Positions 976 to 40,477 of a stretch of DNA of 43,224 nucleotides are shown in pieces. Source of the stretch: Bdellovibrionales bacterium (GTDB taxonomy: Bacteria; Bdellovibrionota; Bdellovibrionia; Bdellovibrionales; UBA1609). The notes beneath the pieces were generated by a model. That model did no database searches, was not told the DNA's origin, and was given only the letters and a program-made list of their open reading frames with translations. Both the position numbers and the translations under genes were made by a program. Location: contig JAPPLY010000088.1 in the NCBI GenBank assembly GCA_028819305.1, forward strand, positions 1 to 43,224, read 5' to 3'. Numbering within the stretch: position 1 is the first letter of the stretch; each line of letters begins with the position of its first letter.

Positions 976-2709
976 ATGAAAATCGCTCTAGCTCAGATCA
1001 ACTCTTTTACCGGGAATATTCTATTTAATGAAAGAAAAATTCAAAACTATATAAAAAAAGCAAAACAGAATAAAGCCTGTCTTATTATCTTTCCCGAAAT
1101 GGTTTTAAACGGTTATTCTCCTTTGGACTTACTAAAGCGAAAGTTTTTTTTACACCAAATTGACCAATCTCTTAAAAAAATTCATAAAACCATGCCAGAA
1201 GATATAGCTGTTTTACTGAGTGCGGCCGGACCGGGTGTGCCTCCTAAGATCTCTGCTTTCTTGTTGGAAAAAAATAAAAAAATAAAAATTTTCTCAAAGA
1301 AAATCCTGGCCAACTACGATGTTTTTGAGGAAGAAAGATATTTTAAAAAAGGACCTGTACAGGATAACTTTTTTATCCTAAAACCCGGAGGAGAAAAAAA
1401 GAAACGACCAGAAAACCTTGTCCCCGTGAAAGCGAAAAACCACCAGACAGATATAATACAGATCCTCCTTTGTGAAGAAACCTGGCATAAACCCCATTTA
1501 CAAGCTCCCCAAAAACCATCTCTTATTATTAGCCTCAATGCTTCCCCTTTCCATTTACAAAAAGATCAAAAGCGAAAGCAAGTGGCCAGAATGTGGATCA
1601 AGAAATACTCCTGCCCTTTTCTTTATATTAACTCCGTAGGAGGACAAGAAGAGCTTATTTTTGATGGAGGAAGTTTTATTTTAGATTCTTCTGGAAAACA
1701 AATTCACCAAAGTCCTTTTTTCCAGGAAGATCTATCCTTCTTCTCTTTTCCTACAAAAAAAAAGCCCCTTCCCCCTCCCTCCAAACAAAAATCGCGTTTT
1801 TCAAAACAAGAGCAAATCACAAAAGCTCTCACTTTTGGATTAAAAGAGTTTATTCAAAAAAATAATTTTCAGCAAGTGCACTTAGGTCTCAGTGGCGGAG
1901 TTGACTCGGCTCTTACAGCGGCTTTAGCCTGTGAAGCCTTAGGAGAAAAAAAGGTGCGGCTTTTTTTTCTGCCCGGTCTGTTCACCTCTTCTCTTTCTAA
2001 ACAATGTGCTCGGCAAATGGCTCATAAATTAAAATGTTCTTTAAATACCCAGTCCATTGAAGAGGTTTATCTGCTTCTTTTAAAAAAGTTTTATATACCA
2101 GTTCCGTCTGAGTTTTCCCGTCGTCTCTTTTCTTCTTCTCAGGAAAGAGAGTCTCAGAAGCCTTCCCTTTTTTCTACACAGATTCCGGATAAAAAAGGCT
2201 TTTTAGATGTGACAAAACAAAATATCCAAGCCCGTCTAAGAAATATATGGCTCATGGCCTATGCTAATAATCATCCTGAAAGCCTCCTTCTTGGTACAGC
2301 CAACAAAAGTGAGCTAGCTTTAGGTTACGGTACTTTGTATGGTGATCTTGCGGGAGGGCTTTTACCTATTGGAGATCTATTTAAAACCGAGGTCTATCAG
2401 CTTGCCCGTTACTTAAAAGTTCCCTCTTCTATTATTACAAGAGAAGCCAGTGCCGAACTCACAGACAATCAAAAAGATACAGACGATCTGCCTCCTTATA
2501 AAAAATTGGATCCAGTTTTACGAAAGCTCATAGAACAGGAAAAAGACCCTGAAAATCCATTTGAAAAACAAATATTACAGTGGATTATAAAAACCGAATT
2601 TAAAAGAAGACAATCTCCTCCCCTTTTAAAAATCAAAGCCCGCTCTTTTGATAGAGGGTGGAGACTTCCCCTTTCTATAAAATATCCGATCTATACCGAA
2701 AAGGTATAG
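976..2709 (+). CDS. nadE: Glutamine-dependent NAD+ synthetase
   Basis: Makes NAD+ from deamido-NAD+, ATP and glutamine in the cytosol. Residues 1-260 are a nitrilase-type glutaminase domain with the expected Glu-Lys-Cys triad: E41 in FPEMVLNGY, K109 before ILANYDVF, and C166 in LLCEETW. Residues 275-577 are the synthetase domain with the PP-loop LSGGVDSA at 305-312 and LLGTANKSE further on. The start has AAGGAAAA just upstream. Two parts look like family A repeat DNA: residues about 137-160, just before the catalytic Cys, and the last codons YTEKV plus the TAG stop. The length (577) fits the family (about 540-580). Its 3' end faces the dnaQ-like gene across a structured repeat. Confidence 0.93.
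   Translation: MKIALAQINSFTGNILFNERKIQNYIKKAKQNKACLIIFPEMVLNGYSPLDLLKRKFFLHQIDQSLKKIHKTMPEDIAVLLSAAGPGVPPKISAFLLEKNKKIKIFSKKILANYDVFEEERYFKKGPVQDNFFILKPGGEKKKRPENLVPVKAKNHQTDIIQILLCEETWHKPHLQAPQKPSLIISLNASPFHLQKDQKRKQVARMWIKKYSCPFLYINSVGGQEELIFDGGSFILDSSGKQIHQSPFFQEDLSFFSFPTKKKPLPPPSKQKSRFSKQEQITKALTFGLKEFIQKNNFQQVHLGLSGGVDSALTAALACEALGEKKVRLFFLPGLFTSSLSKQCARQMAHKLKCSLNTQSIEEVYLLLLKKFYIPVPSEFSRRLFSSSQERESQKPSLFSTQIPDKKGFLDVTKQNIQARLRNIWLMAYANNHPESLLLGTANKSELALGYGTLYGDLAGGLLPIGDLFKTEVYQLARYLKVPSSIITREASAELTDNQKDTDDLPPYKKLDPVLRKLIEQEKDPENPFEKQILQWIIKTEFKRRQSPPLLKIKARSFDRGWRLPLSIKYPIYTEKV
1386..1457 (+). repeat. Family A repeat fragment inside nadE
   Basis: The stretch shares GAAACGACCAGAAAACC with 13811-13830 and ends CCAGACAGATATAA, matching the CGGACGGATATAAC ends at 13908 and 40445. 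It codes a Lys-rich, low-complexity insert (GGEKKKRPENLVPVKAKN) just before the LLCEETW glutaminase motif, where other NadE proteins have a short loop. The reading frame is kept. Confidence 0.65.
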
Positions 2710-2717
2710 AAAATCCC
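2692..2717 (+). repeat. Family A repeat end forming the nadE stop codon
   Basis: TATACCGAAAAGGTATAGAA matches the palindromic head of family A. The TAG of GGTATAG is the nadE stop codon, so the last five residues are repeat-encoded. Confidence 0.65.
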
Positions 2718-9177: not shown

Positions 9178-9260
9178 TTATACCGAATCGGTATAGAATC
9201 CCCGTTTCCACAGAGACATGTTTACGAACCCCAAAATCCGCTTACAGAAACCACAAAATT
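9178..9260. repeat. Family A repeat upstream of mdh
   Basis: TTATACCGAATCGGTATAGA contains the 17-base palindrome TATACCGA-A-TCGGTATA. It is followed after about 40 bp by CCGCTTACAGAAACCACAAAA, the second family A module. This is one of the cleanest copies. Confidence 0.8.
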
Positions 9261-9308
9261 TAAACAAGATTAAGTATAACATAAAAAAGATTTTGTAACG
9301 CTTTGTAT

Positions 9309-9377: not shown

Positions 9378-9590
9378 TTATCTTTTTTTTCTAGCTACTT
9401 TCTTTTTTGCTTTCTTTTTTACCTTCTTCTTAGCTACTTTCTTTTTTGCTTTCTTTTTTACCTTCTTCTTAGCTACTTTCTTTTTTGCTTTCTTTTTTAC
9501 CTTCTTCTTAGCTACTTTCTTCTTTGCTTTCTTTTTTACCTTCTTCTTAGCTACTTTCTTCTTTGCTTTCTTTTTTCTTTTTTCAGCCAT
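9378..9590 (-). CDS. Histone H1-like lysine-rich repeat protein
   Basis: A 70-residue protein made of MAEKR plus five tandem 13-residue units (KKKAKKKVAKKKV), the last ending VARKKR. The composition is almost only Lys, Ala and Val, as in bacterial histone-H1-like DNA-binding proteins (Hc1/AlgP/BpH1 type tails). I infer nucleoid binding through the positive charge. The DNA repeat unit is 39 bp (9381-9575), nearly identical between copies, so copy number could change by slippage. A strong GAGGAGGAACA ribosome site and a good terminator suggest an expressed single gene. There is no folded domain. Confidence 0.8.
   Translation of the reverse strand: MAEKRKKKAKKKVAKKKVKKKAKKKVAKKKVKKKAKKKVAKKKVKKKAKKKVAKKKVKKKAKKKVARKKR
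9381..9575 (-). repeat. Five tandem 39-bp coding repeats
   Basis: Five head-to-tail 39-bp units inside the histone-like gene, each coding KKKAKKKVAKKKV with few silent differences. The in-frame length means copy-number change would not break the protein. Confidence 0.9.
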
Positions 9591-9689
9591 TGTTCCTCCT
9601 CATGTTGAGTGCTGATGTTCATGATGAAAAAAATTCATCCCTATCTTTAAAGAGTGTCACTCCACTTTTTTCTCCAGTCAAATAAAAAA

Positions 9690-11417: not shown

Positions 11418-12764
11418 ATGCTTTATCACTTTGCCTCTTCTGTTCACACTTATGAAGTACAAGAGATTTTAGGAGAAAGTCATACGAGCTTGGTTTACCT
11501 GGCTCAACGTCTTGATAAAGATCTGAAAATCAGACAAGCCTTAATTATTAAACAGTTTAAACAAAAACAAAGCCCTCTCCTAACTTTACAGCTGGAATCC
11601 TTACTAAGAGCTAGACATAGTCCTCATTTAGTAAAGGCGCTTTTTTTTGAAAAATTTAGATCCTATCCAGCTTTAATTTTAGAATACATCTGTAGTGTTA
11701 ATCTAAAACAATTAATGACACAAACAAAACTCAGCCAAAATGAAATAAGAGGGCTTTGCGCCCAGGTTTTAACTGGTTTAGAAGAGTTAAAAAAAAATGA
11801 CCTAGCTCATGGAGATTTAAGCCCTTCTAATATTTTAATAGACACGAAAGGACAAGTGTATCTTACAGACTATGGCCTGGCTAATTACCAAAACGGCGCC
11901 TGTTATGGCACAAAACCCTTTATCGCTCCTGAGATTTACAAAGGGAGGCGAGGGTGTTTTCAATCTGACCTTTTTTCTTTAGGTGTTTTAGAAAAAGTTT
12001 TAAAAGGGCGTTTTACGGAAGAGGAACTGGCTTCTATGGAAAGTAAGCATTTTATCTGTAAAGAAGACCCCCTTCTCGATCCTCACCCTCAAAAAAGAAA
12101 TATACCGCACCGGTATGGAAATGGTGAACTCCGCGCTCTGCCCCTCCCTCAGAAGAAGCTTACAGAAACCACAAAGAGCAAACCAGATCAGAATAACAAA
12201 GCTTTTTCCCCTCTTTCTTACAGTAGCTGTGCTTCCTTAGGTAATAAAGTGCAGCAGATCTTATTTATAAAAAACCATTTCAGCCAGAAAGCTCTTCCTC
12301 CTTCTTCTTTTATACCGCACCGGAGAAATTACACCCTTCAGAACTTTTTTTCTCAGGGAAGAAAAAAAGAGAGGACCAACGGAAAACGGAGGCCCCCCTT
12401 TCGCGAGCAGCTCGGGAATCAAGTGAATAGGTATTTTTTTTCCCGCATAAAAAAATATGCTCTCCCTTGTTATCACCCATTTCTTATAGGAGTTTTATTT
12501 TTTCTTTTTTTATTCACAACTAACCCTTTTATCTCCTATGGAAAATACATCCCCCCTAAAGAACCGGCTAAAGTGCTTATCCGCACTCAGAAATGGGTGT
12601 ACATACAGCTGGCCGGGTTTGAAGGTTATACCCCGATCACTTTCTTTCTTAAAAAAGAGGGCACTTATCAGTTAAAATGGAAAAAACAAAATAAAAATGG
12701 ATTAAAGTATATTTATTTAAAACCGGGACAAGAAGTTTTTTTAACAGATCAGGACTTTCTATAA
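11418..12764 (+). CDS. Ser/Thr protein kinase with membrane segment and PEGA-like tail
   Basis: Residues about 8-225 form a Hanks-type kinase: YEVQEILGESHTSLVYLA (Gly-loop), IIKQF (ATP Lys), HGDLSPSNIL near 130 (HGD in place of HRD, catalytic Asp kept), TDYG near 149 (for DFG), GTKPFIAPEI, and SDLFSLGVL. A long basic linker follows, then a membrane segment near 353-372 (FLIGVLFFLFLFTTNPF) and an outside domain with PEGA-like pattern (VLIRTQKWVYIQLAGFEGYTPITF). The linker holds two family A insertions (residues about 228-258 and 298-335). The catalytic residues look intact, so it is probably active. It follows the Tad-like genes and may control them. Confidence 0.82.
   Translation: MLYHFASSVHTYEVQEILGESHTSLVYLAQRLDKDLKIRQALIIKQFKQKQSPLLTLQLESLLRARHSPHLVKALFFEKFRSYPALILEYICSVNLKQLMTQTKLSQNEIRGLCAQVLTGLEELKKNDLAHGDLSPSNILIDTKGQVYLTDYGLANYQNGACYGTKPFIAPEIYKGRRGCFQSDLFSLGVLEKVLKGRFTEEELASMESKHFICKEDPLLDPHPQKRNIPHRYGNGELRALPLPQKKLTETTKSKPDQNNKAFSPLSYSSCASLGNKVQQILFIKNHFSQKALPPSSFIPHRRNYTLQNFFSQGRKKERTNGKRRPPFREQLGNQVNRYFFSRIKKYALPCYHPFLIGVLFFLFLFTTNPFISYGKYIPPKEPAKVLIRTQKWVYIQLAGFEGYTPITFFLKKEGTYQLKWKKQNKNGLKYIYLKPGQEVFLTDQDFL
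12101..12190 (+). repeat. Family A repeat inside the kinase linker, insertion 1
   Basis: TATACCGCACCGGTATGGAA is followed by AGAAGAAGCTTACAGAAACC (12151-12170). The same 20 bases lie between atpG and atpD (35919-35938). Here they are coding (KKLTETT), read as CAG AAG AAG CTT. The frame is kept right after the end of the kinase fold. Confidence 0.8.
12310..12425 (+). repeat. Family A repeat inside the kinase linker, insertion 2
   Basis: TTATACCGCACCGGAGAA then CCCTTCAGAACTTTTTTTC, resembling CCCCTTCAGAGCTTTTTTCC at 18757. AAAAAGAGAGGACCAACGGA then matches the AAAGAGACGACCAGA block elsewhere. It codes a basic low-complexity linker. Confidence 0.65.
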
Positions 12765-13642: not shown

Positions 13643-13742
13643 AAAAACAAATAAATTGATTTTAGATAATATAAAGAAATAGGCTAGACCAAAAAAGAAA
13701 AACCGATTAAAATTCTTTTTTACGTTTTTAAAGCAAAATATA

Positions 13743-13908
13743 AGGAACGGGTATAGAAAAAAGAAGGTTCATAGCCCCTTTCTCTCCCTCTTTCCTGGGG
13801 GAACAGAAGAAACGACCAGAAAACCCAGTTCACACGAAAACAGGGACCCGCCCTCCTAAAAACGGGAACCTATTTGCAGAGGCGGAGACCGAATCGGACG
13901 GATATAAC
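13743..13908. repeat. Family A repeat ending at the start codon of the PLP enzyme
   Basis: Begins GGAACGGGTATAGAA, contains GAAACGACCAGAAAACCCAG, a CACACGAAAAC and an AAAACGGGAACC segment, and ends CGGACGGATATAAC immediately before ATG 13909. The same tail occurs at 40430-40445. It fills most of the gap after uppP, so the gene's leader and any ribosome site are repeat-derived. Confidence 0.75.
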
Positions 13909-18728: not shown

Positions 18729-18814
18729 TTATACCACACCGATATGGAAAAAAGTCCCCTTCAGAGCTTTTTTCCCTTTGGAAGACCAATAAAGAGACGA
18801 CCAGATAGGTATAA
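18729..18814. repeat. Family A repeat with intact terminal inverted repeats
   Basis: Begins TTATACCACACCGATATGGAA and ends CCAGATAGGTATAA. TTATACC and GGTATAA are a perfect 7-bp inverted pair bounding 86 bp. The interior has CCCCTTCAGAGCTTTTTTCC and AAAGAGACGACCAGA, shared with other copies. Confidence 0.75.
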
Positions 18815-18972
18815 AGTATTTCCTTTTTGCTGTTTTTATAAGCCTAGGATAACAAACACACTTATTTCAATATTTTTTTTATATTTTTAGGAATAGGGTC
18901 TTTAAAAAAACTGTTTTAATTTTATTTTCAGTTTACCAATCGAAACCTTTTGGATGTAAAGAACAATAACTC

Positions 18973-19090
18973 TCTTTTAGAAGAGAATAGAAGTTAAAAG
19001 GCTCAAACATGCGGTTTGCCACAGAGCAACCTTTGGTTGCTCTGTGCTCAAATCCGAACTCGCTTTTACCCCCTATTCTCTTCTAAAAGA
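18973..19090. repeat. Branched structured element, copy 2 (118 bp)
   Basis: The outer arms 18973-18990 and 19073-19090 pair perfectly over 18 bp. The inner hairpin CACAGAGCAACC-TTT-GGTTGCTCTGTG (19020-19046) has a 12-bp stem. The core blocks match copy 1 (2769-2881), but the paired positions differ: GGCT/AGCC in copy 1 is AACC/GGTT here, and the outer arms also change on both sides. Paired changes argue for selection on the fold. Confidence 0.75.
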
Positions 19091-19125
19091 AGTCCCTTTC
19101 TTATAAGATCATATATTTTTACTAA

Positions 19126-19212
19126 GTTTACCAATCAAAACCCTCTGGCTTTAGAGGACAATAGCTTTCTTTTAGTGTTCTAAAGTTTACCAATTAAAAC
19201 CCTTTGGCTTTA
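19126..19212. repeat. Family B repeats at the 3' end of the BatE-like gene
   Basis: Two tandem units start AGTTTACCAATYAAAACCC and end in GGCTTTA. The segment from TTTAGTGTTCTAAAG to CCTTTGGCTTTAA (19172-19212) recurs at 36938-36980 with one mismatch. The second unit supplies the stop codon and last residues (KAKGF) of the BatE-like protein. Confidence 0.75.
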
Positions 19213-19880
19213 AGAGGCAAAATAAAAGAGGTCTTTACCCAACCAGTTTTGGTTGGAGAAATTTGAACCTGGCTCCAGGTCTTTAATGGAGAGTTTTTTT
19301 CTCGCACTTTGACCAGAGTTCCCGCTTTCTGTTCAAACAAAACCGGAGCTTTAGAGTCCGGAGCGCTAAACACCTTGCAGGTTTTTATTAAGCTTCCATA
19401 ATTTTCAAACCGATGATAAAAATAGTAGGCGCTAAAAACATGTGCTATCACCCACAAAGATATTCCCAATGGAAACATCGCCCCGCTCTTTTTTTTAAAA
19501 AGAAGAAAAAGGAGTATAATCCAACTTAAAGCCATAAAAGCTAATAGCATATCTTCTGGTATCCACAGCCAAAAATATTTTTTATCTTCAACAGAATTTA
19601 AGGCCGCTCTTGTTTGTAAACTATAAGGATTTTTAAACAAAATCTGTCGCCAATAGGCTCGAGCCGGATCGGGGGCTTGCTTCTGACGATAAAAAGATAA
19701 AGCTAGGTTAAATCGCCCTGATTCGGATTCTGGATTTATCTCTAAAAACTCAGAAAACAAACGAGAAGCCTCCTCCGTTTGTCCTTCTTGTAAAGAAAGA
19801 AGAGCTTTAGAGAAAAGCTTATCTTGCGCTAAAGTCGAACTTATAAACAAAAAAAGCAATAAAGGCCAAAATTTTTTCAT
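19194..19880 (-). CDS. BatE-like TPR / SH3-domain membrane protein
   Basis: A signal peptide (MKKFWPLLLFLFISSTLA) is followed by two TPR-like units (QTEEASRLFSEFLEINPESESGRFNLALSFYRQ), two membrane segments near 107-150 (LLAFMALSWIILLFLLF; FPLGISLWVIAHVFSAYYF) and a C-terminal SH3-like domain (VFSAPDSKAPVLFEQKAGTLVKV ... GWVKTSFILPL). This layout resembles BatE of aerotolerance operons, but no batA/B/C/D genes are adjacent, so I call it BatE-like only. The last five residues, KAKGF, and the stop lie in a family B repeat and are the same as the end of AtpA. Confidence 0.7.
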   Translation of the reverse strand: MKKFWPLLLFLFISSTLAQDKLFSKALLSLQEGQTEEASRLFSEFLEINPESESGRFNLALSFYRQKQAPDPARAYWRQILFKNPYSLQTRAALNSVEDKKYFWLWIPEDMLLAFMALSWIILLFLLFKKKSGAMFPLGISLWVIAHVFSAYYFYHRFENYGSLIKTCKVFSAPDSKAPVLFEQKAGTLVKVREKNSPLKTWSQVQISPTKTGWVKTSFILPLKAKGF

Positions 19881-28745: not shown

Positions 28746-28890
28746 TTATACTGATCTTGTCTAGTCCCCGCTTCCACGAGAACCAGCTCCGCGGGGACAG
28801 GTTTTGTCATTTCTGTAAGTTTCTTCTAAAGGGTAAACAGAGTTCGGAAAGCACACATTCTTACCCATTTGATACAAAACCAGATCGTAA
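28746..28890. repeat. Family A repeat (with inverted internal module)
   Basis: TTATACTGATCTTGTCTAG begins it; an 8-bp GC-rich stem GTCCCCGC/GCGGGGAC follows; TTTCTGTAAGTTTCTTCT is the reverse complement of the family A module; it fades out near CCAGATCGTAACAGG. Confidence 0.6.
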
Positions 28891-29102: not shown

Positions 29103-29268
29103 TTATACCCAATACGGCTGATTCTCGCTCCCCGCTTTCGGCGGGGACAAGCTTTGCGAGGGTAGGTCCCCATTTCTGCTAAAACAGGGTTTTTTGGGTG
29201 GATTTTTGTTTTTTTCCAAAGAAAAAAGCTCTAAAAGGGACCCTCTTTTCCTGACCGGTTTGGTATAA
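29103..29268. repeat. Family A repeat with terminal inverted repeats (166 bp)
   Basis: TTATACCCAATACGG at one end and CCGGTTTGGTATAA at the other pair imperfectly. Inside is a nested hairpin: TCCCCGC/GCGGGGA (29129-29147) within CTCGC/GCGAG (29124-29160). It ends 17 bp before the FHA gene start. Confidence 0.7.
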
Positions 29269-29957: not shown

Positions 29958-30130
29958 GGTTTTATTTGGTAAACTGAGGTAAACTCTATGACAAATTTAT
30001 CTCTTTTTAAAACGAATGAAGAAAGATATTACTTTATATAAAAATATTAAAGCCAAAGGGTTTTAATTGGCAAACCTCGGTAAACTCTATAGCTCCATTT
30101 ATCTTACATATTAAAGCCAAAAGGATATAT
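29945..30130. repeat. Family B repeats between the FHA gene and mfd
   Basis: Three imperfect units in reverse orientation: AGGGTTTTATTTGGTAAACT (29954-), TTAAAGCCAAAGGGTTTTAA (from 30047), and TATTAAAGCCAAAAGGATA (to 30130). GGTAAACTCTAT follows the first two. The first unit forms the FHA stop codon and the last ends just before the mfd ATG. Confidence 0.7.
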
Positions 30131-30139
30131 AATAAATCT

Positions 30140-33100
30140 ATGCTAAATTTAGAAATTGTAATTAAACAGTTGAAGTCTGGACAAAACCATAAGATATCCC
30201 TTCCCCCTCATTCTTTCTTAGTGGCTTATCTCCTATTTCGCTCCCATCGGGAGGGGCCCCATATTCTCGTGTCTTCTCAAAAAAAAGTATTTGAACAAAT
30301 AAAAAATATTTTGCTTTTTTTAGAACCTGAGCAGAAAATATTTTCCCTTATAGATATTCCTTTTCCGTGGCAAGAAAGTTTATCTTTTTCCTCTTTAACG
30401 GAAATTCGAAAACTTCAATTAATAGCCCTGGCTCAAAAGGCTTCTCCTTCCGATATTTTTATGATCCATCCCCAAGTTTTAAGACAAAGAGTCGTTTGCC
30501 CCGATTTATTCAGAAAAAAATGTCTTCAATTAAAACCGGGGCAATCCCTCCCCTGGCCTTTTGTCTCCACATTAAAAGAGCTGGGCTACCAAAGCCGAGA
30601 TTATGTAGAACAAATAGGGGAGTTTTCCATGAGAGGGGCTGTGTTGGATATATTTAGTCCTTTTTCCAACCACCCACTACGGTTGGAATTGATGGGGGAG
30701 GAAATAATTCAAATAAAAACTTTCGATATAAGCACACAAAAAAGCCTAAGAGAAATAAAAGAAGCTTTCCTATCTCCTATCAGAGAAGGAGCTGTATATA
30801 ACAAAAAAGAAACTTATCAGAAAATAAAAAAAATGATAAATGCAAGAACGAAAGAAAAAAAACCTTTTCCCTCTTTTAAAGAATGGAATCTTTTTTTAAA
30901 CTCCCCAAATTTTAAAACCGAAGGGTTTAGTTTATATAACGACTTAAAGCCCTGGCGAGCTTCTCTTATTCATCAGTCTCCTTTTTCCATCTTAGATTAT
31001 TTTTTCTCTCCTTTAATATGGAACCTAGAAGCCGCTCATAGCCTGATAAAAACATTAGATTTATGGGAAGAGGAAATAAAAAAATGGTCTGAACAAAATC
31101 CCCTCTATCCCACTTTTTCCGACATCTGTGTTTCTAATAAACAAAACAAATTAAAAAGAGAAATCACTTTTGATCCTTTTTTTATACCGAAACAACATAG
31201 AAAACAGACCCCTTCACACCTCTCTTCCCTAGAAAGAAAAGAAGAGACAACAAGCCCTCCTGGTCCTTGCTCTCATGAATTACAAAAGGAGAAAACAAAC
31301 TACTCTAACTTAATGAATACAAATCTCACCTATCTTACTTCTCCTTCTTTTTTAAAAAACTTTTTTCATCATTCTGACTGGCCTCAAAAAATAAAAGAAC
31401 AAAAAAAGAAAGGCTTTTTCATTTTTATTTGTGTAGAAAAAGAAAAAATAAGAAGAGAGTTAAAAACCGATTTAGAATCCGTTGGTATAAAAGGAAAAGA
31501 GGAAAAGTCCTGGTTTGATATGCAGGAAAGTCAGCAAAAAAACTATCTTACAGTGCATCTTATAAAAAGTTTCCAGTGTGAGCCTTTTATATGGCCCCAG
31601 GAAAACATTTTTCTTTTAAATACACAGAAGTTTAGATCACAGAGACGAGAAATAAAAGACAGTTCTTCTTCTGCCCTTTTCATGAATAAAAAAACTCCTC
31701 AACAAAAAAAGACAACCGCAAAAAAGTATAAACAAGCCCTCCATTTCTCTCAACTTAAACCAGGGGATTTAGCGATACACCGCCAACATGGCCTGGGTCT
31801 ATTTAAAAAACTAGACCTTCTTGATTTTGGAACCGGCTACAACGAATTTTTAATTTTAGAATATAGAAATGGAGATCTACTCTATGTTCCTGTTTACACC
31901 CTCCACCAGGTGCAAAAATACTCAAGTCCCTTATCTCCAACCATAAAAAACCAACTCCTGGATAAACTAGGAGACACAAGATGGCTCAACACAAAGGAAA
32001 AAGTGAAAAAAAAGATGAAGGACATGGCTATGGAGCTTATCAACTTATATAGTGTAAGATCCTCTTTAAAAAGAAAAGTTTTTCCTTCTACAAGTAAGAA
32101 TTTTGACCAGTTTGAAACAGAGTTTCCTTTTACAGAAACTCTGGATCAGAAAAAAGCAATTGAAGATATAATAAAAGATATCAGTCAAAAACAACAACCC
32201 GCCGACCGTCTCATCTGTGGAGACACTGGATTTGGAAAAACAGAAGTAGCCATGAGAGCCGCTTTTAAAGTTATGGAAGAAGGTTTTCAAGTGGGCCTTA
32301 TGGCCCCTACTACTATTTTAAGCTTTCAACATTTCGAAAGATTTAAAGAAAGATTTAAAAATTGGCCTTTCCTCATTCGTTTGCTCAATCGCTTCACTCC
32401 TCCTCCTGAAAGAAAAAACATCCTTAAAGAAACGAAAGAGGGAAAAGTAGATATTCTTATTGGCACTCACCGTATTTTGAGTCAAGACCTCCAATTTAAA
32501 AAACTAGGTCTTCTCATCATTGATGAAGAGCATTTATTCGGAGTAAAAAGCAAAGAGAAATTAAAAAATTGGTACTCTCATGTAGATACCATAAGTCTTT
32601 CCGCCACACCGATTCCCCGAAGCCTTAGTATGAGCTTAAGCGGGATACGGGATATGAGTGTGATTCTCACCCCTCCTTTAAACAGAAAACCTGTACACAC
32701 TTTCATCAGCCCTTTTAAAGAAAGTTTAATTAAAACAGCCATCTTAAAAGAATTAGACAGAAAAGGTCAGGTGATTTTCATTCATAACCGTATTGCTGAT
32801 ATTCACATAATGGAAGACAAAATAAAAAAGCTTCTCCCTACTATACGAATACGCACAGCTCACGGAAAAAAGAAAGACTTACAACAAAAAACAGTTTTAG
32901 ATTTTTTTTACCAAAAGTTTGATCTTCTCCTTTGCACCACTATTGTAGAATCAGGAATGGATTTTCCCAAAGCCAACACTTTATTTATTAACCAAGCCGA
33001 AAAATTTGGTTTGTCTCAATTACATCAACTCCGAGGAAGAATTGGCCGGTCAGACCGATCCTCTTATTGTTATCTTTTGATAGATCCCAGAAAAAACATC

Positions 33101-33853
33101 CCTCAACCCGCTATGGAAAGATTAAAAATCATCCAGGAAAACAATCAGCCCGGAGCAGGCATTGCTGTGGCCCAGTATGATTTAGAAATGCGCGGAGCTG
33201 GGGAATTAATGGGAGCGGAGCAATCCGGATTTTTACAAAATATAGGTTATGAGATGTATTTTGAGTTTTTACAGGAAATGATTTCTTCCTTAAAAACAGG
33301 AAAACCCAAGTCTATACCAGAACCGGATCTGAAATTTAAACAACCGGCCTTCCTCCCTAAAAATTATATCCCTCATGAAAAAACCCGACTCCTTTTTTAT
33401 AAAAAACTGGCTACCGCCAACTCAGAAGAAGAAATAGAACAAGTAAAAGCAGAATTAGAGGATTTTGCAGGGACTTTACCTGAAGAAACAAAAAATTTGA
33501 TTTTACTCTCTCACTTTCGGCTATTAGCAAAAAAAGCCCATATTAGAGAGCTTTCCCATAAACCCCCTTTTCTTTATATGAGCCTGGCAGACTCAACCCC
33601 TTTATCCCCTTCTCAAGTTTTACAATGGATCGAAGAGGGATTATGTGAATGGCAAAACAAAAACACTCTTAAGTTTGCCCTATACCAAACCAGTATAGAA
33701 ATAAAAGACTCCGAACTCCGTTCAAGCCCTAGAAGAAGCTTACAAAAATCCGACCAAAAAGGGGCCCTTTCCCATCCCTGTTCCTCTTCTCCTCAAAACG
33801 AGGATCTTTTACATATATGGAAGCTTTTAAAAAATCTTTTCTATAAAATTTAA
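30140..33853 (+). CDS. mfd: Transcription-repair coupling factor
   Basis: Removes stalled RNA polymerase and recruits UvrABC. The UvrB-like N-terminus has GEFSMRGAVLDIFSP; the RNA-polymerase-binding domain is PGDLAIHRQHGLGLFKKL ... NGDLLYVPVYTL (near 540-590); the motor has Walker A GDTGFGKTE (near 693), DEEH (near 794), SATPIPRSL, TTIVESGMDFPKA (near 933) and QLRGRIGRSDR; a TRCF C-terminal domain follows. At 1237 residues it is about 80 above usual. Two stretches (about 351-378 and 1181-1210) are family A repeat DNA kept in frame. The start sits at the end of a family B repeat with no clear ribosome site. Confidence 0.95.
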   Translation: MLNLEIVIKQLKSGQNHKISLPPHSFLVAYLLFRSHREGPHILVSSQKKVFEQIKNILLFLEPEQKIFSLIDIPFPWQESLSFSSLTEIRKLQLIALAQKASPSDIFMIHPQVLRQRVVCPDLFRKKCLQLKPGQSLPWPFVSTLKELGYQSRDYVEQIGEFSMRGAVLDIFSPFSNHPLRLELMGEEIIQIKTFDISTQKSLREIKEAFLSPIREGAVYNKKETYQKIKKMINARTKEKKPFPSFKEWNLFLNSPNFKTEGFSLYNDLKPWRASLIHQSPFSILDYFFSPLIWNLEAAHSLIKTLDLWEEEIKKWSEQNPLYPTFSDICVSNKQNKLKREITFDPFFIPKQHRKQTPSHLSSLERKEETTSPPGPCSHELQKEKTNYSNLMNTNLTYLTSPSFLKNFFHHSDWPQKIKEQKKKGFFIFICVEKEKIRRELKTDLESVGIKGKEEKSWFDMQESQQKNYLTVHLIKSFQCEPFIWPQENIFLLNTQKFRSQRREIKDSSSSALFMNKKTPQQKKTTAKKYKQALHFSQLKPGDLAIHRQHGLGLFKKLDLLDFGTGYNEFLILEYRNGDLLYVPVYTLHQVQKYSSPLSPTIKNQLLDKLGDTRWLNTKEKVKKKMKDMAMELINLYSVRSSLKRKVFPSTSKNFDQFETEFPFTETLDQKKAIEDIIKDISQKQQPADRLICGDTGFGKTEVAMRAAFKVMEEGFQVGLMAPTTILSFQHFERFKERFKNWPFLIRLLNRFTPPPERKNILKETKEGKVDILIGTHRILSQDLQFKKLGLLIIDEEHLFGVKSKEKLKNWYSHVDTISLSATPIPRSLSMSLSGIRDMSVILTPPLNRKPVHTFISPFKESLIKTAILKELDRKGQVIFIHNRIADIHIMEDKIKKLLPTIRIRTAHGKKKDLQQKTVLDFFYQKFDLLLCTTIVESGMDFPKANTLFINQAEKFGLSQLHQLRGRIGRSDRSSYCYLLIDPRKNIPQPAMERLKIIQENNQPGAGIAVAQYDLEMRGAGELMGAEQSGFLQNIGYEMYFEFLQEMISSLKTGKPKSIPEPDLKFKQPAFLPKNYIPHEKTRLLFYKKLATANSEEEIEQVKAELEDFAGTLPEETKNLILLSHFRLLAKKAHIRELSHKPPFLYMSLADSTPLSPSQVLQWIEEGLCEWQNKNTLKFALYQTSIEIKDSELRSSPRRSLQKSDQKGALSHPCSSSPQNEDLLHIWKLLKNLFYKI
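31192..31275 (+). repeat. Family A repeat inside mfd, insertion 1
   Basis: TTATACCGAAACAACATAGAA resembles the family A head; CCCCTTCACACCTCTCTTCCC and AAAGAAAAGAAGAGACAACA resemble the interior blocks. It codes FIPKQHRKQTPSHLSSLERK, a polar linker between the UvrB-like and RNA-polymerase-binding parts. Confidence 0.65.
33681..33770 (+). repeat. Family A repeat inside mfd, insertion 2 (near the C-terminus)
   Basis: TATACCAAACCAGTATAGAA, then AGAAGAAGCTTACAAAAATCC (33731-33751), the same module as in the kinase but read as CCT AGA AGA AGC (PRRSLQKSD), one base shifted from the kinase frame. It lies past the TRCF C-terminal domain core. Confidence 0.75.
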
Positions 33854-36920: not shown

Positions 36921-36985
36921 AATTAAAAGCCTTTGGCTTTAGTGTTCTAAAGTTTACCAATTAAAAGCCTTTGGCTTTAAAAATA
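36921..36985. repeat. Family B repeats at the 3' end of atpA
   Basis: AATTAAAAGCCTTTGGCTTTA occurs twice 38 bp apart (36921- and 36959-), joined by GTGTTCTAAAGTTTACC. The second unit codes the last residues and stop of AtpA (KAKGF). AAAGCC-TTT-GGCTTT forms a small hairpin with A/T flanks that could act as a weak terminator inside the operon. Confidence 0.75.
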
Positions 36986-39042: not shown

Positions 39043-39130
39043 TTACACCGAATCGGTATAGAATTTGTATTCCTTCAAAACTTCTTTTTCCTTGAGAGCT
39101 TCGGGTCCTGTGGGAGAAAAAAGAAAGGAC
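39043..39130. repeat. Family A repeat between atpF and atpH
   Basis: TTACACCGAATCGGTATAGAA contains the palindrome ACCGA-A-TCGGT; AAAAAGAAAGGACCAAAAAGC resembles the AAAGAGACGACC block. It is open in the frame of atpH and so extends the ORF upstream of the true start. Confidence 0.7.
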
Positions 39131-39147
39131 CAAAAAGCTCAAATCAA

Positions 39148-40135: not shown

Positions 40136-40477
40136 CCACCCATTTATATTTTTAAACTGAACCCAATTAGTCTAGTTCAACTCATTGGTGTTTTATAATT
40201 CGGACACACATAGAAATTTTTTTACTACGTTATGACCGAACCAGTGTATAGGAAGTTACGCCTTTCAAAGTCTCTCTTCCCGGGAGAAGAAAAAAGAGAC
40301 AAAAAAAACCTGTCTCCGCAGAAGCGGGAAGCTATTATCTGATTTGCTTCCCAACCATAATGAGCACCCCATTTCTTTCAGCCTGTCCTCCCGGAAGTCT
40401 GACCTCGTAGAAACGGGGCTGGAGAGCAAGCCGGACGGATATAACTATAAAAACATGGTTTTTTACACGAGACAAGT
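40136..40477. repeat. 342-bp gap between bactofilin and the atp operon, mostly one family A copy
   Basis: From 40230 to 40445 is a long family A copy: TTATGACCGAACCAGTGTATAGGAA head, CTCTCTTCCCGGGAGAAGAAAA and GAGACAAAAAAAACCTGTC interior, and CCGGACGGATATAAC tail. The plus-strand ORF 40344-40577 runs through it and is not a gene. The remainder upstream of the b'-type gene is AT-rich and could hold the operon promoter. Confidence 0.65.

Follow-up and report, generated by a model that had tools for sequence, protein, structure and literature searches.

The analysed window is one entire contig of 43,224 nucleotides from a genome of 1.98 Mb (88 contigs, 93% complete) and contains nadE, which encodes a two-domain glutamine-dependent NAD+ synthetase (Table 1). 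A search of the genome gave one match, i.e., nadE is a single-copy gene. By tblastn, most of the flanking 43 kb was syntenic with contig C46 of a congener (G001), in the form of two blocks, and the gene order parA-parB-bactofilin-atpF'-atpF-atpH is one that we take to fit Bdellovibrionia; no 16S rRNA gene was detected in this genome. Alignments with homologs showed that the glutaminase triad (Glu41, Lys108 and Cys166) and the synthetase P-loop SGGVDS (residues 306–311), which matches SGGxDS, are conserved in NadE. The enzyme has therefore kept its motifs despite being interrupted, as the preliminary description of this DNA had claimed.

We identified three pieces of one repeat family, designated family A, in nadE. 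Copy 1 encodes PGGEKKKRPENLVPVKAKNHQTDI with a net gain of ~21 amino acids and sits in the beta-hairpin turn ahead of the catalytic Cys166. This insert had been assigned to the interior and tail of family A, and a second model, built from sequence only, agreed, covering positions 44–119 of the family at 1381–1455 (E = 2.9e-9). Copy 2 encodes IPVPSEFSRRLFSSSQERESQKPSLFSTQIPD with a net gain of ~29 amino acids. At the 3' end of the gene, the family A head at 2692–2712 makes the product end in ...YTEKV-stop, which bears out the earlier proposal that the last codons and the TAG were derived from the repeat. It had further been suggested that an essential enzyme was invaded twice. The invasion stands, but the number does not: the antisense copy at 2094–2191 was overlooked, and nadE was thus invaded three times. 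In a NadE alignment with 28 relatives, including two congeners whose NadE is ~64–70% identical to the one described here, inserts 1 and 2 were missing from all 28, and the C-terminus was unlike that of any of them. The same loop and C-terminus in close relatives without the family had been named as grounds to refute the description; relatives without the family proved to be also without the loops and without this C-terminus.

An AlphaFold model of NadE based on 8 sequences was of moderate quality (mean pLDDT 70, pTM 0.73), and its closest PDB matches were glutamine-dependent NAD synthetases. Insert 1 appeared as a low-confidence loop (pLDDT <50 at residues 138–157) with strands 132–135 and 159–165 on either side, immediately preceding Cys166, and insert 2 fell within a stretch (residues 372–413) that mostly had pLDDT <50. 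The inserts are presumably translated and, judging from this model, form additional, probably disordered loops; NadE carrying them most likely still works.

Table 1. nadE and family A copies in the window.
Feature	Position	Strand	Evidence
nadE, glutamine-dependent NAD+ synthetase, 577 aa, CN_hydrolase and NAD_synthase domains	976..2709	+	Pfam; PDB sequence match 4f4h/5kha
Copy 1 in nadE, 5'-truncated (model positions 44–119), ends with TATA at 1455	1384..1455	+	nhmmer; gap in 28/28 relatives
Codon for catalytic Cys166, retained	1471..1473	+	invariant alignment column
Copy 2 in nadE, nearly full-length, antisense to the gene, synthetase domain	2094..2191	-	nhmmer; gap in relatives
Family A head TATACCGAAAAGGTATAGAAA (2/21 mismatches), giving final nadE codons and TAG (2707–2709)	2692..2712	+	head pattern match
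Intergenic copy, exact head	9179..9270	+	head pattern
In-frame copy in Ser/Thr kinase gene (11418–12764)	12101..12195	+	nhmmer, both models; missing from G001
Second copy in the same kinase gene (11418–12764)	12311..12434	+	nhmmer; missing from G001
Intergenic copy, full-length	13739..13906	+	nhmmer
Intergenic copy	18730..18805	+	nhmmer
Intergenic copy	28747..28874	-	nhmmer, both models
Intergenic copy	29161..29267	-	nhmmer, both models
In-frame copy within mfd (30140–33853)	31183..31277	+	nhmmer; missing from G001
Head and body, part of Mfd C-terminal tail (33681–33853)	33681..33748	+	head pattern; near end of G001 alignment
Copy antisense over 5' extension of atpH ORF	39044..39138	+	nhmmer
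Intergenic copy	40234..40343	+	nhmmer, both models

The family was modeled by iterated nhmmer (threshold E<1e-3) on the window and further genome stretches, 441 kb in total or ~20% of the genome, with all nadE copies excluded from training. This model detected 84 copies at E<1e-3 in the 441 kb, which extrapolates to ~380 in the genome, i.e., probably a few hundred; a genome-wide search listed at least 123. The 120-nt consensus is TATACCGAACCGGTATAGAAATTGCACCCTTCAGAACCTCTTTCTTTCCCTTGGGAGAAAAAAAGAAACGACCGGAAAACCTTGTCCTCGCGGAAGCGGGGATCAAACCAGATGGGTATA, and complete copies span 115–179 bp. The terminal inverted repeats, TATACC...GGTATA, are imperfect past ~6 bp, although one copy pairs 12 terminal bp. 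TA forms the first two bases in all 56 left-complete copies, TATA terminates most right-complete ones, and the flanks show the preference T|TATACC...GGTATA|A. These consensus flanks suggest a TA target-site duplication, the congeners being too diverged to provide an empty site at base level. A subtype of family A (L076:1036–1150, L070:12412–12816 and L079:7014–7129) shares the common head and tail but has another left half, TATACCGATCGTATTTGAAAATTCC...GGATTTAAAGGCTTGG, i.e., there are mosaic subfamilies.

Several controls ruled out chance or base composition as the source of the family. With the same model, no match at E<1e-3 was found in 351 kb of G001 or in Markov-shuffled sequence, where none fell below E = 0.007. 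The head pattern with one mismatch allowed occurred 40 times in the own genome and was absent from 143 other genomes of the class, and the reversed head pattern gave no occurrences. Allowing up to two mismatches, the head was found at 16 sites in the 441 kb, at none in shuffled sequence and at none in the 351 kb of G001. A 164-nt copy had no match in 39 relatives, and the exact head did not turn up in viral contigs that were scanned for it. In addition, nadE DNA at 1387–1461 had 40 BLAST matches in its own genome at E≤1 (itself counted), 18 of them below 1e-3, indicating that the repeat family is real. The median best pairwise identity among copies was 76% (97% for one local pair); given this divergence, the main burst looks old, yet more recent than the split from congeners G001 and G002. 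Folding gave z-scores of -1.8 for the consensus and -3.2 for the best copy, which is weak support for an element-wide hairpin, and RNA structure as the driver of the family was rejected because no covariation was seen.

Family A copies were depleted in ORFs: 42 of the 84 (50%) lay in ORFs, whereas ORFs make up ~82% of the sequence (P = 4e-11). Insertions into genes thus appear to be selected against, though many persist. Approximately 26 copies were ORF-internal, at least 90 nt from each ORF edge. Hosts recognized by Pfam included PurH, AroB (two copies), DapF, a MurI-like racemase, Mfd, a Ser/Thr kinase (two), 2-oxoacid dehydrogenase E2, a TPP enzyme, TamB and others. In-frame copies whose site is empty in one or more congeners were found in NadE (two), the kinase (two), Mfd, MurI, PurH, AroB and DapF. 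For example, the alignment blocks of PurH and AroB from G002 abut exactly, so that the proteins of our organism have ~31 and ~30 extra residues, respectively. The copy overlapping the atpH ORF lies upstream of the conserved atpH start (Met at approximately residue 41). As with the end of nadE, the C-terminal tail of Mfd was partly derived from family A. A glucose/sorbosone dehydrogenase-like ORF (L071:8414–10036) overlapped three copies, two of which mutually overlap in opposite orientation near the N-terminus.

The consensus was stop-free in four of the six frames, two on each strand (P = 0.0026 against dinucleotide shuffles). In intergenic copies, on which no coding constraint acts, 99 frames were open compared to 60±5.5 expected, a significance that is optimistic because the copies share ancestry and are not independent samples. 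The open frames may have been selected because their translation does no harm, or they may be a fortuitous property that permitted spread. A further reading is that selection has made the element translatable from either strand, that its harmlessness when translated lets it spread in a gene-dense genome, and that it has reshaped loops in a large fraction of the core enzymes of this species; we put this forward tentatively, as it is more doubtful than probable.

Several other explanations of the nadE inserts were considered. Ordinary lineage-specific loop expansion, in which the likeness to the repeat would be due to purine-rich and Lys-rich composition, has in its favor that the insert is indeed A/G-rich and Lys-rich and that NadE loop length varies among families. 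However, the model trained without nadE copies recovered copy 1 at 1370–1455 (E = 7e-11) and copy 2 at 2185–2109 (E = 1.4e-8), far from the shuffled background. Moreover, the segment GEKKKRPENLV of copy 1 is identical to the sense frame of the consensus, and the protein sequence of copy 2 fits one reverse consensus frame with both element ends present, which makes loop expansion very improbable. Removal of the element, either from the RNA or from the protein (as with inteins, introns or bypassing), leaving the mature enzyme without it, would account for insertions tolerated near active sites. Yet Rfam gave no intron or other RNA match except one tRNA, the copies are found in either orientation, in several frames and often truncated, a variety beyond what a removal system could handle, and the frame is kept although removal would not need it; we regard this possibility as extremely remote.

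Exaptation, i.e., selection retaining the inserts because they alter NadE, for example its glutaminase-synthetase coupling or oligomer contacts, is unlikely as well. The persistence of three insertions in one single-copy essential gene, and the location of insert 1 within a few residues of the catalytic Cys, would fit it, but family A also occurs in many unrelated genes and its depletion in ORFs points to tolerated damage rather than benefit; the inserts are also predicted at low confidence, like disordered loops. With high confidence, we conclude that the best explanation is a non-autonomous MITE-like element that multiplied after the split from the congeners and is tolerated in frame inside proteins.

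According to this MITE-like explanation, a ~120-bp element bounded by TA-flanked terminal inverted repeats would have been amplified after the species split from its sequenced congeners, inserting at TA-rich sites on either strand. The TA ends and inverted repeats indicate a transposase acting in trans, by which family A would presumably have transposed. With no stop in four of the six consensus frames, many insertions into genes leave the reading frame open, and copies that add a net multiple of three nucleotides and fall in surface loops would be retained even in essential genes. In nadE, copy 1 may have entered the hairpin turn that precedes the glutaminase Cys and lost its 5' part later, or may have been inserted truncated; copy 2 would have entered a synthetase-domain loop in antisense orientation; and the head of a third copy would have taken over the natural gene end. 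A search of three transposase families for the source yielded no parent with matching ends: PF13358 and PF01797 were not found in the 93%-complete genome, and the sole DDE_Tnp_1 fragment found was without family A ends.

Family A resembles the Rickettsia palindromic elements (RPE), described by Ogata et al. (2000, 2002). According to two reviews (PMC2229807, PMC10969869), these are elements of ~100–150 bp with inverted-repeat ends and open frames that encode no transposase and occur both between genes and in frame within conserved genes. Unlike RPE, family A is TA-ended, apparently has more copies (~380 by extrapolation), is used in both orientations, has three pieces within one enzyme and resides in a host apparently outside Rickettsiales. 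Guanylate kinase with an RPE insertion remained active, with an altered affinity for its substrate (Abergel et al. 2006, cited in PMC2229807), which sets a precedent for NadE. Wolbachia palindromic elements (WPE) are likewise protein-coding palindromic repeats in a bacterium (Ogata et al. 2005, cited in PMC3733652), but in a different host group.

Similarity also extends to the ERIC/RU-1, RU-2 and Correia/NEMIS MITEs, which are ~107–168 bp long, with 5'-TA-3' termini in ERIC and Correia, and in some cases have open frames joined in frame with another ORF (PMC2229807, PMC2759123). Bacterial MITEs are primarily intergenic (reviewed in PMC2229807), whereas ORFs contain half of the family A copies, with several core enzymes among the targets. 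The RUP element of Streptococcus pneumoniae is 107 bp long, has TA termini and is proposed to be mobilized in trans by IS630, but it is located between genes, with all six frames interrupted by stops (PMC2229807); our search of this genome recovered no IS630-type DDE_3 domain (PF13358). Family A behaves like RPE and other ORF-bearing MITEs, as selfish DNA tolerated inside proteins. It is apparently a new family of a known kind, set apart from RPE and WPE by their descriptions rather than by comparison of sequences.

The best-documented cases of in-frame mobile elements in conserved proteins are those of Rickettsia and Wolbachia. The family described here is species-specific and belongs to an apparently unrelated lineage; it probably numbers hundreds of copies, and its sites are empty in congeners that are syntenic. 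NadE, PurH, AroB, DapF, MurI and Mfd thereby provide natural before/after pairs for testing how proteins tolerate insertions of 20–40 residues, and the same pairs bear on whether selfish DNA evolves translatability.

Additional repeats were observed in the window. Another MITE-like family with ~18-bp inverted ends (CAGGAGAGAATAAGAG...CTCTTATTCTCTCCTG) was present directly 3' of nadE (2764–2896) and at 18971–19102, as well as in a sampled stretch elsewhere in the genome (L027, ~1501). A third repeat family, with the unit GTTTACCAATTAAAACCCTTTGGCTTTAA in both orientations, was clustered near gene ends (18917–19213, 30044–30129 and 36921–36980). The palindromic motif TCATTCCCGTGAAAACGGGAATCCAG was found at 371–450, and a similar hairpin, CCCCGCGAAAGCGGGG, lies within the tail of family A, which suggests that repeats are nested. 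Finally, 39-bp tandem repeats at 9380–9591 encode a Lys/Ala-rich, histone H1-like repeat protein.
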